From: Janthinobacterium sp. 64
GTDB taxonomy: Bacteria > Pseudomonadota > Gammaproteobacteria > Burkholderiales > Burkholderiaceae_D
Length of the DNA: 64,000 bases
Assembly: GCF_002813325.1 (NCBI RefSeq)
Contig: NZ_PHUG01000001.1
Location: 1,426,001 to 1,490,000 of the forward strand
Direction: 5' to 3'
The number at the start of each line of letters is the position of its first letter. Position 1 is the first letter of the stretch. Both the position numbers and the translations under genes were made by a program. Below, piece by piece: positions 21,830-29,985 of the stretch. The notes beneath the pieces were generated by a model, which was given only the letters and a program-made list of their open reading frames with translations, did no database searches and was not told the DNA's origin.

Positions 21830-21951
21830 AGTCCGAAGGCACCGCTCCTCACATGGCGTCAAACGCAATAACACAATGCAAATGATGCGTCTTCCGCCAT
21901 GCCAGATCCCTCAGTACCATGTGGTGACCCTATTCGAGGATCCACCACGCC

Positions 21952-23409
21952 ATGCAAGCACCTTCAAAACCCAGTCCACCCGACCAGCAGGCCACAGAAG
22001 CCGGTAGCGCCATGCGCCCCGTGCGCGGCGCGCTTGCCAGCCTGTCCCTGGCGATGCTGCTGCCCGCGCTGGGTACCAGTATCGCCAACGTGGGCTTGCC
22101 CGACATGGCCAGGGCCCTGCACGCGCCGTTCCAGGATGTGCAATGGATCGTGCTGGCCTATCTGCTGGCCATCACCGCGCTGATCGTCAGCGTGGGCCGC
22201 CTTGGCGACATGGTCGGCCGGCGCCGCCTGCTGCTGGCCGGCATCGCGCTGTTTGCCGTCGCTTCCATCCTGTGCGCCCTGGCGCCCACCTTGTGGCTGC
22301 TGGTTGCCGCGCGCGCCCTGCAGGGCCTGGGCGCGTCCGTCATGATGGCGCTGACCATGGCCTTTGTCGGCAGCACCGTGCCCAAGGCCAGAACGGGCAG
22401 CGCCATGGGCCTGCTCGGCACCATGTCGGCCGTCGGCACCACGCTTGGCCCCGCGCTGGGCGGCCTGCTGATCGCGCACTTCGGCTGGCAAGCCATTTTC
22501 CTCGTCAACGTGCCGCTGGCCGGCGTGGCGCTGCTGATGGCCTGGCGCTTCCTGCCGGCCGACCAGCGCGGCGCCAACGCCAAGCGTCCCGTCTTCGACC
22601 ACCGCGGCACCGTGCTGCTGGCCCTGACCTTGTGCGCCTATGCGCTGGCGATGACCGTGGGCCGCGGCCATTTCGGCGCGCGCAACGTGGCGCTGCTGCT
22701 GGCCGCCTGCGTCGGCGCCATCCTGTTCGTCCGCGTCGAACTGAAGGCGCCGGCGCCGCTGATACGCCTGGCCATGCTGCGCGCGCCCGTGCTCAGCGCC
22801 GGCCTGGCGACCAGCATGCTGGTGTCGACTGTGATGATGTCCACCCTGGTGGTCGGCCCCTTCTACCTGGCGCGCGGCCTGGGCCTGGGCACGGCCGTCA
22901 CCGGCATGGTGCTGGCGGCCGGGCCGCTGGTGGTGGCGTTCTGCGGCGTGCCGTCCGGCTGGCTGGTGGACCGCTACGGCGCGCAGCGCATGGGCGGCGC
23001 GGGCCTGTGCGGCGCGGCCTTCGCCTGCCTGGCGCTGGCCCTGCTGCCCGCCAGCCTGGGCATTGCCGGCTACGTCGTCCCGATCATGCTGCTGACGGCC
23101 AGCTATGCGCTGTTCCAGGCAGCCAACAATACGGCCGTGATGGTCGATATCGCTGCCGAGCAGCGCGGCGTCATCTCCGGCATGCTCAATCTGTCGCGCA
23201 ATCTGGGCCTCGTCACGGGCGCCTCCGTGATGGGCGCCGTCTTCGCTGCCGGCACCAGCGATATCGCCAGTGCTCCGCCAGTCGCCATGATCGGCGGCAT
23301 GCACGCCACCTTTGCCGTCGCCAGCGCGCTGATACTCGCCGCGCTGGCCATTTTCGCGCTCGGCCGCGCCCTGGCCAAGCCACCCACGCCTTCCGGAGAC
23401 CCCGCATGA
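21952..23409 (+). CDS. MFS drug exporter, DHA2 (14-TM) type
   Basis: This 485-residue inner-membrane protein has the hydrophobic pattern of 14-TM drug:proton antiporters, with motif A GRLGDMVGRRRLLL (about 80) and motif C GTTLGPALGGLL (about 165). It probably exports toxic compounds across the inner membrane. Its stop overlaps the start of the adaptor gene (ATGA), so it is translationally coupled to the RND genes. The ribosome site is weak (GAGG about 12 bases away); an internal ATG at 22012 is an alternative. DHA2 pumps normally pair with EmrA-type adaptors, but the adaptor here is RND-type. Confidence 0.9.
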   Translation: MQAPSKPSPPDQQATEAGSAMRPVRGALASLSLAMLLPALGTSIANVGLPDMARALHAPFQDVQWIVLAYLLAITALIVSVGRLGDMVGRRRLLLAGIALFAVASILCALAPTLWLLVAARALQGLGASVMMALTMAFVGSTVPKARTGSAMGLLGTMSAVGTTLGPALGGLLIAHFGWQAIFLVNVPLAGVALLMAWRFLPADQRGANAKRPVFDHRGTVLLALTLCAYALAMTVGRGHFGARNVALLLAACVGAILFVRVELKAPAPLIRLAMLRAPVLSAGLATSMLVSTVMMSTLVVGPFYLARGLGLGTAVTGMVLAAGPLVVAFCGVPSGWLVDRYGAQRMGGAGLCGAAFACLALALLPASLGIAGYVVPIMLLTASYALFQAANNTAVMVDIAAEQRGVISGMLNLSRNLGLVTGASVMGAVFAAGTSDIASAPPVAMIGGMHATFAVASALILAALAIFALGRALAKPPTPSGDPA

Positions 23410-24548
23410 TGCGCCCCCGTCCGATCCCGTCCCTGCCCGTCCCGCTGTTACTGCTGCTTGCCCTGGCCTGCAACGCCACGTTATCCGGCTGCGGCCGTTC
23501 CCAGGCCGCGCCTGGCGGCCCGCCGCCCAAGCCCACCGTGTCCGTGGCGCTGCCCGAATCGTCGATGGTGCAGGCGACCCTCGACTACACGGGCCGCATC
23601 GAAGCGTCGCAGCGCGTGGAAGTGCGCTCGCGCGTCTCCGGCTATTTGCAGCAGATCGCCTTTCGCGACGGCCAGCAGGTCAAGGCCGGCGATGCGCTGT
23701 TCGTCATCGACCCGCGCCCCTTCGCCGCGGCGCGCGACCGTGCCCGGGCCAGCCTGGCCCAGGCCGATGCGCGCAGCAAGCTGGCCAAGGCCCAGTTCGA
23801 GCGCAGCAACCGGCTGCAGCAAACGGGCGCGGCCAGCACCGAGGAGCTGGAACGGGCGCGCGGCGAACTGGAAGGCGCGCAGGCAGCCGTCATGCTGAGC
23901 CAGGCGGAATTGCTCAGCGCCGAACTGGAACTGTCTTTTACCACCATGCGCGCGCCCATCGCCGGCACCGTGTCGGACCGCCGCGTCGATGTCGGCAACT
24001 ACGTGGCCGGCGGCGCGGCGCAAAGCGGCGTGCTGACCACCATCGTCGCGCACAGCCCCGTGCGCGCCATGGTCGACCTGTCGGAGGCGGATTTCCAGCG
24101 CCTGCGCCAGCAAAGCAAACTGCCATCGAAGGTGCAACTGGCATTCGACGGCGGCGGCCCCGCGCAGGATGCCAGCGTCGACTTTGTCGACAACGAAATC
24201 AGCGCCCGCTCGGGCACCGTGCGCCTGCGCGCCAGCCTGGCCAACGCTAACCGCGCCATCATGCCGGGCAGCTTTGCGCGCGTGCGCATCCCCGTCGGCG
24301 CGGCGCAGCAGCGCCTGCTGGTGCCCGACGCCGCCATCCTCAGCGACCAGAACACAAAAATGGTGTTCGTCGTGGACGCGGCGGGCAAGGTGGCGCCGCG
24401 CAAGCTGGAACTGGGCGGCCTGCGGGGCGACAAGCAGATCGTGCTGTCCGGCCTCGGACCGCACGAAAAAGTCATCGTCTCCGGCGCGGCCAAGGTGCGC
24501 CCGGGCGACCAGGTGCTGGTGGCCGCTGCGCGCGCCAACGGCGCATAA
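23406..24548 (+). CDS. RND efflux periplasmic adaptor (membrane-fusion lipoprotein)
   Basis: This 380-residue adaptor begins with a lipoprotein signal ending in LSGC (Cys about 29) and has a lipoyl half (VRSRVSGYLQQIAFRDGQQV), an alpha-helical hairpin (about 100-160) and the second lipoyl/beta-barrel half (TMRAPIAGTVSDRRVDVGNY). It links the inner-membrane pump with the outer-membrane channel in the periplasm, as AcrA/MexA do. GGAG seven bases before the ATG, plus the 4-base overlap with the MFS stop, fix the start. The open frame upstream is out of phase with the real MFS gene. The RND gene starts 9 bases downstream. Confidence 0.95.
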   Translation: MMRPRPIPSLPVPLLLLLALACNATLSGCGRSQAAPGGPPPKPTVSVALPESSMVQATLDYTGRIEASQRVEVRSRVSGYLQQIAFRDGQQVKAGDALFVIDPRPFAAARDRARASLAQADARSKLAKAQFERSNRLQQTGAASTEELERARGELEGAQAAVMLSQAELLSAELELSFTTMRAPIAGTVSDRRVDVGNYVAGGAAQSGVLTTIVAHSPVRAMVDLSEADFQRLRQQSKLPSKVQLAFDGGGPAQDASVDFVDNEISARSGTVRLRASLANANRAIMPGSFARVRIPVGAAQQRLLVPDAAILSDQNTKMVFVVDAAGKVAPRKLELGGLRGDKQIVLSGLGPHEKVIVSGAAKVRPGDQVLVAAARANGA

Positions 24549-24557
24549 GGAGAGAGC

Positions 24558-27500
24558 ATGCGTTTTTCCCGATTTTTCATCCGCCGTCCCGTGTTTGCCA
24601 TCGTGCTGTCGATCCTGATCACGCTGGTCGGTGCGGTGTCGGCCATGCGTCTGCCGATCTCGGAATTTCCCGAGATCGTGCCACCCACGGTGACCGTGAA
24701 GGCCAGCTACCCGGGCGCCTCGGCGCAGGAAATCGCCGATACCGTCGCCGCGCCGATCGAACAGGAGATCAACGGCGTCGACGGCATGCTCTACCTGTCC
24801 TCGCAATCGGTGGGCGACGGCAAGCTGACCATCAGCGTGGTGTTCAAGGCGGGCACCAACGTCGAACAGGCCCAGTCGCTGGTGCAGAACCGCGTGGCGG
24901 TGGCCGAAGCGCGCCTGCCCGATGCCGTGCGCCGGCTGGGCCTGGCCGTCAAGAAGGCATCGCCCGACCAGCTGATGGTGGTGCTGTTCGATTCGCCCAA
25001 AGGCACGCGCGACCAGCAATACATTTCCAACTTCATCGGCACGGCCATCAAGGACAAGCTGGCCCGCGTCGAAGGCGTGGGCGACATCTACACGCGCGGC
25101 GCGCGCGACTTCTCGATGCGCATCTGGCTCGACCCGGCGCGCGTGGCCTCGCTGGGATTGACGGCGCCGGAAGTGATCGCGGCCGTGCGGCAAGCCAATT
25201 CCCAGGTCGCCGCCGGCGTATTGAACCAGCCGCCCGGCGGCAGCGACGGCGCCTTCCAGGTACAGGTGCAGGCGCAAAGCCGCCTGCGCGACGTGGCCGA
25301 ATTCGAAGCCATCGTCGTGGCCGCCCATGCCGGCGGCGGCGTGGTGCGCCTGCGCGACGTGGCGCGCGTCGAGATGGGAGCACAGGATTACACGGAAAGC
25401 GGCTTCGTCGACAATCGCACGGCCATCGCGCTGAGCATCAGCCTGCTGCCCGGCTCGAACGCGCTGGCCACGGGCGAGCGCGTGCTGGACCTGCTGGCAA
25501 AAATGCAAGCCGACTTCCCGCAGGACATCGCCTACCACAGCTATTACAATCCGACTGAATTCATCCGCTCCTCGATCGACAAGGTGCGCGACACCATCTT
25601 CGAAGCGGCCCTGCTGGTGTGCCTGGCCATGCTGCTGTTCCTCGGCTCGTGGCGCGCCGCCATCATTCCCATCCTGGCCATTCCCGTGTCCCTCGTCGGC
25701 ACCTTCAGCGTGCTGGCCGCGATGGGCTATAGCCTCAATACCCTGTCGTTGTTCGGCCTGGTGCTGGCGATCGGCATCGTCGTCGATGACGCCATCGTGG
25801 TGGTGGAAAACGTCGAGCGGCACATGGAGGACGGCATGAGTCCCGTCGCCGCGGCGCAGCGCAGCATGGATGAAGTGGGCTTCGCCCTGGTCGCCATCGC
25901 GCTGGTGCTGGTGGCGGTCTTCGTGCCGACGGCCTTCATCGACGGCATCTCCGGCATGTTCTACCGCCAGTTCGCCGTCACCATCGCCGCCTCCACCGTG
26001 ATCTCGGCGCTGGTCTCGCTGACGCTGTCGCCGGCCCTGGCCGCGCTGCTGCTCAAGCCGCAGCACGATGCCAACAGCCTGGGCGCGCGCTGGATGCGCA
26101 TTTTCAACCGCGGCTTTTCCCGCCTGACGGGCGGCTACGTGCGGCTGACGGGGCGCATCCTCTCGCGGCGCTGGCTGATGCTGCCCGTGTACCTGCTGCT
26201 GGCGGGCCTGACCCTGTGGCGCCTGGACGCGACGCCGCGCGGTTTCGTGCCGCAGCTGGACCGCGGCTACGCCATCGTCTCGATCCAGCTGCCGGCCGGT
26301 TCGACCCTGGCGCGCACCAGCGAAGTGGTGCAGGATGCCACGGCCCGGCTGATGAGCCATCCCGGCGTGGCCCACACGGCCGCCTTCGTCGGCACCGATG
26401 GCGCCACGTTTACGTCGGCGCCCAACACGGCCGTCATCTTCACCATGTTCAAGGACTTCGGCGCGCGCGCCAGCGATGGCCTGGATGGCCCGGCCATGCT
26501 GGGCGCCATGCGCGCCAGGCTGGCGCCCATCAGCGCGGCGCGCGTGATGGTGATACCGCCGCCTTCCGTGCGCGGCATCGGCACGGGTGGCGGCTTCAAG
26601 CTGATGCTGCGCGACACGGGCGGCCATGGACCGCAAGCCTTGCAGGCGGCCGCGCGCGCCATCGTCGAGGAAGCGGGCAAGCTGCCCTCGGTGACGGGCG
26701 CCTTCACGCCGTTCAACGCCATGAGCCCGCAGATCAAAGTTGAACTGGACCGTACCAAGGCCGAATACCTGGGCGTGCCGCTGCTGCGCCTCAACGAAAC
26801 ACTGCAAAGCTACATGGCGCCCGTGTTCGTCAACGACATGAACCTGATGGGCCGGGTGTGGCGCGTCACCGCCCAGGCGGACGCGCCCTACCGGCGCGGC
26901 GTGGCCGACCTGGCAGCCCTGAAGACGCGCGCCGCCAACGGCGACATGGTCCCGCTGGGCAGCGTGGCCGCCTTCAGCGAAGGCACGGCGCCATTCCGCG
27001 TGCCGCGCTACAACCTGTATCCCGCGGCCGAAATCCAGGGCAGCACCAGGCCTGGCTACTCGACGGGGCAAACCATCGCCGCGATGGAAGAACTGCTCAA
27101 GGCGCGCCTGCCGGACGGCTTCGACTACGAGTGGACGGAACTGGCGCTGCAGGAAAAACACGCGGGCGGCAGCACCGGCATGGTGCTGGGCCTGGCCGTG
27201 CTGCTCGTGTATCTGCTGCTGGCGGCCCTGTTTGAAAGCTGGCTGCTGCCCCTGTCCGTCGTGCTGATCGTGCCCAGCTGCGTGCTGGCCACGCTGGTCG
27301 GCGTGTCGTGGCGCGGCCTGGACAACAACGTGCTGACGCAGATCAGCATCGTGGTGCTGATCGGCCTGGCGGCCAAGAATGCCATCCTGATCGTCGAATT
27401 CGCGCGCCAGGCGATGGCGGCCGGCGCCGATGCGCGCGAGGCGGCCATCGCCGCCGCCCGCACGCGCCTGCGGCCCATTCTCATGACGTCGCTGGCCTTT

Positions 27501-29060
27501 TTGCTGGGCGCGATACCGCTGATGCTGTCTTCCGGCGCGGGCGCGGAAATGCGCCAGTCGATGGGCACGGCCGTCTTCGCCGGCATGCTGGGCGTGACCG
27601 TGTCCGGCCTGTTGTTTACACCGTTGTTTTTCACCTTGCTGAGCCGGCGCCGCGCGGCGCCGCTGCTGGCGGCCACGCTGCTGGCCCTGGCCGGCTGCAG
27701 CGTCGGCACGCCCACGGCGACGCGGGGGTTCGATACTGCGCGGCTGCCGGTCCTGCCCTCGGCCGCCGGCGCACCGGAGCTGCAGGCCGGCGCGCCGCCG
27801 GCGCTATGGTGGCAGGCACTAGGCGACGCCAGGCTGGAGCAATTAGTGCAACGCGCCTGGCACGACAATGACGACGTGCGCATCGCCGCCGCGCGCCTGG
27901 CCAGCGCCAGCGAATTTGCGCAAGCGGCGCGCGGCGCCCGCCTGCCCACGGCGGATCTCGATGCGCAGGCCGGGCGCGCGCGCCTGGCGGCGATCGGGAG
28001 CCGCGACGGCCAGCCGCACATCGCCTCGCCGGTACAGTGGAACGCCGCCTTCAGCTGGGAACTCGACCTGTTCGGCCGCGTACGCCACAGCATCGCCGCA
28101 GCCGAGGCCACGGCGGACGAACGCGCCGCCGTGCGCGACGACGTGCGGCGCCTGATCCTGGCGCAAGTGGTGGACGCTTACCTGGTGCTGCGCGGCGCGC
28201 AGCAGATGCGCGCCAGCCTGGAAGAACAATTAGCCAACCAGTCCGGCACCTTGCGGCTGGTGCGCGAGCGCGAGAACGCGGGCCGCGCCGCGCCGGCCGA
28301 ACGCATGCGCGCCGAAGCGCAGATGCGCCTGGCCAGCGCCCGCCTGCCCAGCCTCAACTTTGATGAGCGCGCGGCGCGCAACCGCCTGGCGACCCTCACG
28401 GGGCAGCGGCTCGATGCGCCGGAACTGGCCGCGCTCGACCAGCCGATGCCGCTGGCGCTGCCGCAAACCCTGCTGACGGATGAACCGGCCCATTTGCTGC
28501 TGCGCCGGCCCGACGTGCGCGCGGCCGAACGCGCGCTGGCGGCGGCCAGCGCCCGCGAAGGCGCGGCCATCGCCGAGCGCTTCCCGCGCATCAGCCTGGG
28601 CGCGCTGTTCGGCGCCTCCGGCGTGGCCGGCGACTGGCATGGTGGCGACGCGGCGCGCTGGCATGCGGGCGCCGCCTTTACTCTGCCGCTGTTCGATGGC
28701 GGCACGCGCCGCGCCCGCGCCCGCGCGGCCGGCGCCGACGTGCTGGCCGCGCAGGCCGGCTTCGACAAGGCGCTGGCGCTGGCGTTGGAGGAAGCCGACA
28801 GCGCCATCGCGCAATGGGTGCAGCTGCGCAGCCGCCATGCGGCACTGCGCGAGGCGCACCAGCTGGCGCAGGACAGCGCGCGCCTGGCCAGGGTGCGCTA
28901 CCAGGAAGGCGCGGAAAGCCTGCTGGGCGTGCTCGAAGCGGAGCGCATCGCGCTGGCCACGCAGGAGCAGCTGGTGACGGCCCACCGCGACGTGGCCATC
29001 GCCACGGCCCGTGGCTACACGGCCATGGCAGGCGGCTTCGACGGACCGGTGCCCCGCTAG
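24558..29060 (+). CDS. RND multidrug pump fused in frame to an outer-membrane factor
   Basis: Residues 1 to about 1026 form a complete HAE1-type RND permease: N-terminal MRFSRFFIRRPVFAIVLS, proton-relay Asp pair in GIVVDDAIVV (about 407-408) and Lys in GLAAKNAILIVEF (about 939). Without a stop the frame continues as LLSRRRAAPLLAATLLALAG then Cys (about 1047), a lipoprotein signal peptide, and then a full NodT/OprM-type outer-membrane factor to residue 1500 (WWQALGDARLEQLV at its start). Normally these are two genes. The RND C-terminus is cytoplasmic, so the second hydrophobic segment would lead the factor into the periplasm, where signal peptidase II could release it. AAGGAGAG precedes the ATG. 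An in-frame TTG at 27636 could start the second part separately. Confidence 0.9.
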   Translation: MRFSRFFIRRPVFAIVLSILITLVGAVSAMRLPISEFPEIVPPTVTVKASYPGASAQEIADTVAAPIEQEINGVDGMLYLSSQSVGDGKLTISVVFKAGTNVEQAQSLVQNRVAVAEARLPDAVRRLGLAVKKASPDQLMVVLFDSPKGTRDQQYISNFIGTAIKDKLARVEGVGDIYTRGARDFSMRIWLDPARVASLGLTAPEVIAAVRQANSQVAAGVLNQPPGGSDGAFQVQVQAQSRLRDVAEFEAIVVAAHAGGGVVRLRDVARVEMGAQDYTESGFVDNRTAIALSISLLPGSNALATGERVLDLLAKMQADFPQDIAYHSYYNPTEFIRSSIDKVRDTIFEAALLVCLAMLLFLGSWRAAIIPILAIPVSLVGTFSVLAAMGYSLNTLSLFGLVLAIGIVVDDAIVVVENVERHMEDGMSPVAAAQRSMDEVGFALVAIALVLVAVFVPTAFIDGISGMFYRQFAVTIAASTVISALVSLTLSPALAALLLKPQHDANSLGARWMRIFNRGFSRLTGGYVRLTGRILSRRWLMLPVYLLLAGLTLWRLDATPRGFVPQLDRGYAIVSIQLPAGSTLARTSEVVQDATARLMSHPGVAHTAAFVGTDGATFTSAPNTAVIFTMFKDFGARASDGLDGPAMLGAMRARLAPISAARVMVIPPPSVRGIGTGGGFKLMLRDTGGHGPQALQAAARAIVEEAGKLPSVTGAFTPFNAMSPQIKVELDRTKAEYLGVPLLRLNETLQSYMAPVFVNDMNLMGRVWRVTAQADAPYRRGVADLAALKTRAANGDMVPLGSVAAFSEGTAPFRVPRYNLYPAAEIQGSTRPGYSTGQTIAAMEELLKARLPDGFDYEWTELALQEKHAGGSTGMVLGLAVLLVYLLLAALFESWLLPLSVVLIVPSCVLATLVGVSWRGLDNNVLTQISIVVLIGLAAKNAILIVEFARQAMAAGADAREAAIAAARTRLRPILMTSLAFLLGAIPLMLSSGAGAEMRQSMGTAVFAGMLGVTVSGLLFTPLFFTLLSRRRAAPLLAATLLALAGCSVGTPTATRGFDTARLPVLPSAAGAPELQAGAPPALWWQALGDARLEQLVQRAWHDNDDVRIAAARLASASEFAQAARGARLPTADLDAQAGRARLAAIGSRDGQPHIASPVQWNAAFSWELDLFGRVRHSIAAAEATADERAAVRDDVRRLILAQVVDAYLVLRGAQQMRASLEEQLANQSGTLRLVRERENAGRAAPAERMRAEAQMRLASARLPSLNFDERAARNRLATLTGQRLDAPELAALDQPMPLALPQTLLTDEPAHLLLRRPDVRAAERALAAASAREGAAIAERFPRISLGALFGASGVAGDWHGGDAARWHAGAAFTLPLFDGGTRRARARAAGADVLAAQAGFDKALALALEEADSAIAQWVQLRSRHAALREAHQLAQDSARLARVRYQEGAESLLGVLEAERIALATQEQLVTAHRDVAIATARGYTAMAGGFDGPVPR

Positions 29061-29079: not shown

Positions 29080-29985
29080 TCAAACGGCGCCGATCTGGCC
29101 GGCGCAGGCGTCGACCACGCAGCCGCGCAGCCAGCGGTGGGCGGGGTCGGCATCCATGCGCGGATGCCACATCAGCGACACGGTCAGCTCGGGCATGCGC
29201 AGCGGCAGCGCAAAGCTGAACATGCCGGCACGCAGATTGCCCGTATGCCGTTCCGGCACGGTGGCGATCAGGTCGGAGCCGGCGGCCAGCGCCAGCGCCG
29301 CCGTGAAGCCGCCGACGATGCTGGCGATCGTGCGCTGCAGTCCCAGGGCGGCCAGCGCGTCGTCCATCGGACCCGTATCCTGGTCGCGCCGCGCCACCAG
29401 CACGTGCTCGCCGGCCGCATAGCGCCCGGCGCTGATCGCTCCTTGCGCCAGCGCATGGCCGCTGCGCACCACGCCGACGAAACGGTCGCCGAACAGCCTG
29501 CGCGTGCGCACTTCCGGGCTGGTGAGACTGCCGATCACGCCCGTTTCCAGGTCGATGCTGCCCTCGCGCAGTTGCACGCTTTCACGGTCGACCTTTTGCA
29601 CGAAGCGCAGACGCACGCCAGGCGCCTGCGCGCCGATATGCGCGAGCAGCGCCGGGCCGAAATTTTCCACGAAGCCGTCGCTCGCACGCAGCGTGAAAGT
29701 CTGCTCCAGCTGGCGCGGATCGAGCTGCTGCGCCGGTCCCAACACGGCCAGCGCCTCGCCCACCAGCTGCCCCACCCGTTCGCGCAATTCCAGCGCGCGC
29801 GGCGTGGGCACCAGTTCACGGCCGGCGCGCACCAGCAGCGGATCGCCGGTCGTCTCGCGCAGGCGCGCCAGGGCGCGGCTCATGGCCGATGGACTCAACC
29901 TCAAGCGCCGCGCCGCGCGCGTGACGCTGCCTTCGGCCAACAGCACGTCAAGGGTGATCAACAGGTTCAGGTCGGGTAGCGACAT
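29080..29985 (-). CDS. LysR-family transcriptional regulator
   Basis: This 301-residue protein has the LysR N-terminal winged helix (about 1-60: DLNLLITLDVLLAEGSVTRA then SPSAMSRALARLR) and a substrate-binding-like effector domain (about 90-295). LysR proteins bind DNA as tetramers and respond to small ligands. It starts only 6 bases after the stop of the M28 peptidase on the same strand, so it is probably co-transcribed with it. It converges on the efflux operon with a 19-base gap, so control of the pump is possible but not shown by the layout. Effector unknown. Confidence 0.9.
   Translation of the reverse strand: MSLPDLNLLITLDVLLAEGSVTRAARRLRLSPSAMSRALARLRETTGDPLLVRAGRELVPTPRALELRERVGQLVGEALAVLGPAQQLDPRQLEQTFTLRASDGFVENFGPALLAHIGAQAPGVRLRFVQKVDRESVQLREGSIDLETGVIGSLTSPEVRTRRLFGDRFVGVVRSGHALAQGAISAGRYAAGEHVLVARRDQDTGPMDDALAALGLQRTIASIVGGFTAALALAAGSDLIATVPERHTGNLRAGMFSFALPLRMPELTVSLMWHPRMDADPAHRWLRGCVVDACAGQIGAV

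Follow-up and report, generated by a model that had tools for sequence, protein, structure and literature searches.

The window, a stretch of 64,000 nucleotides from Janthinobacterium sp. 64, carries a single stop-free open frame of 1500 codons on its forward strand (24558 to 29060), whose translation of 1500 residues (both taken from the ORF list of the window) contains a complete HAE1-type RND permease followed by a complete outer-membrane factor (OMF) of the NodT/OprM type. In profile searches of this chain, Pfam ACR_tran was matched over its full length by residues 3-1028 (1070 bits), and RND_permease_1 (NF000282, NCBIfam) scored 1254.2 bits, narrowly above its cut-off of 1250; Pfam OEP was found in two stretches (E 1.1e-41) and outer_NodT (TIGR01845, NCBIfam) covered residues 1039-1493 with 251 bits against a cut-off of 210. 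The solved chains closest in sequence to the permease part are RND permeases, 7wlv_A being the closest (E 1.6e-301), while the best PDB match by sequence for the C-terminal part is OprN (5iuy, E 1.8e-54), with OprJ and OprM also matched. Both GIVVDDAIVVVENVER and AKNAILI are unchanged relative to 7wlv_A, in an alignment reaching as far as AKNAILI; in the permease half we take DD of helix 4 and K of helix 10 to be the proton-relay motifs. One frame running from an RND permease into a NodT/OprM-like lipoprotein, as described in an earlier note on this DNA, is thus borne out by the ORF and its domain matches, and the fusion through an internal lipoprotein signal is confirmed as real.

Upstream of the fused gene lie an adaptor gene and an MFS gene (Table 1), so that the run encodes every component of a tripartite pump. 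The MFS gene overlaps the RND adaptor gene by ATGA, which places two kinds of inner-membrane pump beside one adaptor. From position 21848 on, the DNA aligns with five Janthinobacterium loci in which permease and channel are separate genes (hereafter split) and with the locus of Janthinobacterium sp. BJB426. Downstream, the LysR-type gene is a possible regulator of the pump. A scan for promoters and terminators gave matches near chance level.

Table 1. Features of the fused pump-channel gene and its neighbours (positions in the window).
Feature	Position	Strand	Basis
MFS transporter, first gene of the same run	21952-23409	+	MFS_1; EmrB-type DHA2 is the best NCBIfam match, below cut-off
Periplasmic adaptor (RND_mfp) with its own lipobox LSGC	23406-24548	+	TIGR01730 above cut-off (tested from 23409)
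HAE1-type RND permease, codons 1-1030	24558-27647	+	ACR_tran; NF000282 above cut-off; 7wlv_A
TTG put forward as internal start, without Shine-Dalgarno	27636-27638	+	Duplex energy
Internal lipoprotein signal: n-region SRRR, h-region AAPLLAATLLALAG, lipobox LAG-C; predicted 13th helix	27642-27695	+	Sequence
Deletion scar, 15-nt direct repeat encoding part of RRAAP	27647-27661	+	Alignment with split G010 (locus L048), base by base
NodT/OprM-type outer-membrane factor, mature from Cys 1047 on, including the stop	27696-29060	+	TIGR01845; OprN 5iuy
LysR-type regulator, converging on the fused gene and lying about 20 bp beyond its end	29080-29985	-	ORF list; domain match

The two halves are joined through RRRAAPLLAATLLALAG-C, where the cysteine is codon 1047 (27696-27698), just where the earlier note had put it behind LAG. 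The sequence at the joint reads LLSRRRAAPLLAATLLALAGC, in the wider context ...FTPLFFTLLSRRRAAPLLAATLLALAGCSVG..., and RRR is followed by 14 hydrophobic residues, the last of them being the LAG of the LAGC lipobox. The joint had been called MLSRRR-like: SRRR is there, but the first residue is Leu and not Met. A lipoprotein signal with its cysteine stands before the channel domain, yet it is internal to the chain and not N-terminal. RRAAPLLAATLLA-AGC occurs both at the fused joint and in the signal encoded by the separate channel gene of the split genome G010, where the lipobox has M for L. Ser occupies position +2 after Cys 1047, which fits outer-membrane sorting under the Lol rule. HAE1-type permeases, as known from AcrB, end on the cytoplasmic side after helix 12. 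The genome contains one LspA gene.

We searched 40 Janthinobacterium genomes, own genome included (3 of the 40 being less than 90% complete or more than 5% contaminated), and found a close orthologue in seven: two fused (own and BJB426, genome G017) and five split (G005, G010, G012, G020, G030). Among the matches listed for the other 33 genomes, the best by score, none exceeded about 50% identity. The BJB426 allele (contig NZ_PDZL01000008.1) shows the same joint in the same frame, with 1503 codons stop-to-stop, and is 98% identical to the window allele; the two differ at 3 of the 66 nt around the signal, all silent, so that the translation is identical. The search for the same fusion in relatives, proposed earlier as a check, was therefore answered positively by the BJB426 assembly. 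A scan of named genomes gave nine loci: BJB426 (fused), seven split loci, of which two are G020 and G030 again, and a permease-only match from Thioclava at 40%. The total for orthologous loci is 2 fused and 10 split, the split ones beyond the genus coming from Duganella, Massilia, Pseudoduganella, Rhodoferax and an Undibacterium MAG; split orthologues have the same order as the window and are 61-99% identical per part, but consist of two genes. Since 5 of the 7 Janthinobacterium orthologues are split, the idea that the genus has long carried the fusion was discarded. Long RND frames in four other genomes (G013, G003, G011 and G027; open frames of 1505-1811) were considered as further fusions and dismissed, the channel lying in a separate frame in all four. 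No fused Janthinobacterium protein appeared among the matches listed from the protein collection.

Base-by-base comparison with the split G010 locus revealed how the genes differ. The fused allele lacks 74 bp between two 15-nt direct repeats (one mismatch between the copies in G010), with the crossover within 27657-27661, a 5-nt shared stretch inside the repeat. Over the 202 bases ending at 27661 there is one mismatch to G010, and 27639 to 27661 are identical; beyond 27661, the fused allele matches G010 74 bases further on, at 94.4% over 214 bases. In all five split Janthinobacterium loci the permease extends 11 residues beyond RRAAP, and its stop and the start of the channel gene overlap as ATGA; in the four loci tested, this start is preceded by the Shine-Dalgarno sequence GGGAG. 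The deletion removed the last permease residues and stop together with the start, ribosome-binding site and n-region of the channel gene, and kept the h-region and lipobox of the channel signal. RRAAP is encoded by either copy of the repeat in the frame of the gene to which that copy belongs, and recombination between the copies therefore fuses the frames automatically. On this alignment the fused state is the derived one in the window lineage, a small deletion having merged the two genes. The number of events is less simple: across 8.1 kb, own, BJB426 and G010 form a near trichotomy with differences of 2.7-3.6%, and the locus tree pairs BJB426 with split G010 (support 0.989), in line with informative sites grouping own with BJB426 (16), own with G010 (18) and BJB426 with G010 (33). 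Given this grouping, the fusion shared by own and BJB426 goes back either to a single deletion, with recombination or lineage sorting afterwards, or to this repeat having given rise to a deletion twice.

Similar proteins exist in other bacteria. Two overlapping protein searches, with residues 960-1500 (best 120 of 557 matches) and with the fused relative P0009 (best 120 of 5795), gave 229 proteins; of the 230 listed in this way, the window protein included, 141 have both domains and the other 89 just the permease. At least 140 other fused HAE1-NodT proteins (P0002-P0031, P0042, P0122-P0230) were found, and the expectation that a one-gene pump-plus-channel would be new was therefore not upheld. 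A later search gave nine fused or part-fused matches, of which five were new (P0231-P0235) and are left out of the 141. The 141 form 19 clusters at 70% identity and are consequently not independent; the few with named sources come from Acidobacteria, Acidoferrales, Thermoanaerobaculia and Entotheonellia, and the source names of P0013 and P0019 join HAE1 and NodT. These fused proteins, annotated as multidrug efflux pumps, resemble the window protein in domain order, place of fusion, a hydrophobic segment at the joint and, in most, a lipobox. They differ in that those listed in the first search are only 26-40% identical over residues 960-1500, that most have a longer loop ahead of the signal (7-92 residues, median 20), that 12 have an A-x-A motif, and that the window fusion sits in a clade of split genes.

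A lipobox is present at the joint in 125 of the 141 (105 of 121 anchored by script and 20 of 20 unanchored by eye), against a lipobox-like match in 10.5% of shuffled joints from 16 cluster representatives; an earlier, cruder count had found Cys in 122 of 141 and in 18 of 19 representatives (the one miss being a misplaced joint), with 6.4% in shuffles. All 121 anchored joints have a net positive loop ahead of the hydrophobic stretch. A-x-A without Cys occurs in 12 of the 121: P0027 and P0031, beside P0022, P0024 and P0026 (LTSC), and, in a second group, P0020, P0142-P0145, P0148 and P0150-P0153, beside P0009 and P0010 (LGAC). Single A-x-A cases in Ala-rich joints may be due to chance, the shuffle control covering the lipobox only. 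Neither motif was found by script in 4 of 141, namely P0134 (LGRC) and P0147, P0154 and P0157, which have no Cys. More telling is the spacing: the arm from Cys to the conserved WW motif of the channel measures 30-38 residues (median 34) in 123 lipobox forms, whereas in the 12 A-x-A forms WW lies 2-10 residues past the motif by eye (0-10 by a script using the last A-x-A), the N-terminal arm of the channel having been lost together with the lipobox Cys. Taken over the fused proteins, these joint motifs fit cutting of the chain.

To place the fusions relative to split genes, a permease tree was built from 95 sequences (59 fused and 36 split, the latter sampled thinly outside the window clade). 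It requires a minimum of nine fused/split changes, with some inner nodes weak (support 0.076, 0.598) and with root and direction of change not fixed by the tree; the direction is visible for the window lineage only, through the deletion. Fused and split sequences are neighbours at support 1.0 in three places: P0029 with P0119, the P0022 group with the own paralogue L003, and P0030 with the own paralogue L001. The window pair is nested inside split orthologues and bears a visible deletion, which speaks against its common descent with the other fused groups. In other bacteria, too, similar mergers appear to have occurred, independently of this one.

How would the channel part be made and released from such a chain? 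As the comparison with G010 shows, an operon of the order adaptor, permease, channel, with an ATGA overlap, lost 74 bp between its RRAAP-encoding repeats, and two frames became one. We suggest that permease and channel are translated as one polypeptide. The old signal peptide of the channel, separated from helix 12 by the short SRRR loop, would insert as a 13th helix with its N-terminus inside and its C-terminus outside, and the channel part would thereby be exported. After lipidation of Cys 1047 by Lgt, LspA would cut ahead of this residue; the channel would go free as a normal outer-membrane lipoprotein, and the signal peptide would remain as a tail helix of the permease. Pump and channel, made 1:1, would finally assemble with the adaptor into a normal tripartite RND pump. 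One chain with a 13th helix, cut before Cys 1047 by Lgt and LspA, is in our judgement probably what happens and offers the best explanation of the sequence features, although the signal follows helix 12 after only a short loop, which counts against it. Of the readings proposed for this locus, that of a polyprotein cut by signal peptidase II is accordingly the best supported. The fixed stoichiometry foreseen by the earlier note would then hold for synthesis only, as nothing keeps the two parts of a cut chain together.

Other explanations were weighed against this one. It is extremely improbable that a sequencing or assembly error hides a stop or 74 bp: the deletion is flanked by repeats and the BJB426 assembly has draft status (cov 10.6 in its node name), but two separate assemblies agree at the joint and yet differ, silently, in adjoining bases, and because of this a slip was rejected. 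We also regard as very unlikely a free channel precursor, made beside the long chain by internal initiation at TTG 27636 or nearby. This TTG is codon 1027, as had been noted, in frame, 20 codons before Cys 1047 and with the entire signal downstream; initiation there is another matter, because the deletion took the native channel start and its ribosome-binding site and left only the signal core and lipobox. Its Shine-Dalgarno duplex is +1.7 kcal/mol, compared with -6.5 to -7.0 at the channel start of four split relatives and -7.1 at the permease start, and the seven ATG, GTG or TTG codons listed from 27549 to 27624 are weak (-1.1 to -3.5 kcal/mol). With no such codon near the joint having a comparable ribosome-binding site, the channel part should come from the long chain only. 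The strongest duplex in the stretch (-7.9) precedes CTG 27744, which lies past the lipobox, so that a product from there would have no signal; scoring stopped before GTG 27846, and products from that codon onward would likewise be without signal. Hardly more credible is a fusion that works uncut as a covalent pump-channel. Tripartite pumps have a permease:channel ratio of 3:3, which one chain with 1:1 parts would match, but the lipobox is complete here, signal-peptidase-like motifs recur across the other fusions, and it is hard to see how a channel tethered by its N-terminus to the inner membrane could have its barrel in the outer one. Left uncut, the A-x-A forms would have their channel anchored no more than about 10 residues from the inner membrane; so short a link could hardly extend as far as the outer membrane, and cutting therefore seems required in them.

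A further possibility is that the deletion broke the channel half, so that the OMF is neither processed nor assembled, the permease uses another NodT channel and the fusion is a recent, near-neutral relic. The genome is rich in efflux systems, with 19 matches for RND permeases and, above cut-off, 16 channels of the NodT type, window gene included; with 15 others available the window channel could be dispensable. Moreover, the fusion occurs in just 2 of the 40 genus genomes and may stem from two young deletion events. The OMF frame is nevertheless intact in both fused genomes at 3.6% locus divergence, as is the signal, with silent differences only. Between the fused alleles, dN/dS is 0.149 for the OMF and 0.117 for the RND half, both within what split Janthinobacterium pairs show (0.143-0.400 and 0.073-0.188, respectively), though if there were two recent deletions these values would mostly measure the time before fusion. 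Lineage changes in the OMF (replacement/silent: own 2/13, BJB426 4/12, split G010 5/11) show no excess of replacements in the fused lineages, whereas the permease half has relatively more of them in the fused branches (own 4/16, BJB426 7/15, G010 1/9), in small numbers, a point in favour of a relic. On balance we consider a relic unlikely, and prefer a chain that is cut to yield a working channel.

In literature on RND-channel fusions and on precedents for polyproteins and internal signals (mainly titles and the starts of abstracts, with subscription journals largely outside), we found no description of natural RND-OMF fusions, and passages of PMC8277102, PMC10434189 and PMC5837995 contain nothing on them.

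A partial parallel is FbcH of Bradyrhizobium japonicum, the cytochrome b/c1 precursor of a respiratory complex and of the signal peptidase I type. There too, a polytopic inner-membrane protein is fused to an exported partner and separated from it at an internal signal peptide; the window fusion differs in its lipoprotein-type site and in a partner destined for the outer membrane. We lean slightly towards a general view in which RND pump-channel fusions are recurrent envelope polyproteins, the channel signal serving as a 13th helix and being resolved by signal peptidase II or, where Cys is lost, by signal peptidase I, with Janthinobacterium representing the birth of one by a single repeat-mediated deletion that left processing intact. 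Such fusions may recur because the signal peptide is kept, which would enable signal peptidase to separate the parts again. Fused and split orthologues, about 97% identical, form a natural pair for testing how a lipoprotein signal behaves behind a 12-helix membrane protein, and whether 1:1 synthesis of pump and channel matters. Finally, P0161-P0171 combine a different type of RND permease, with a differing helix 12, with a similar channel domain, which suggests domain exchange or another separate fusion.
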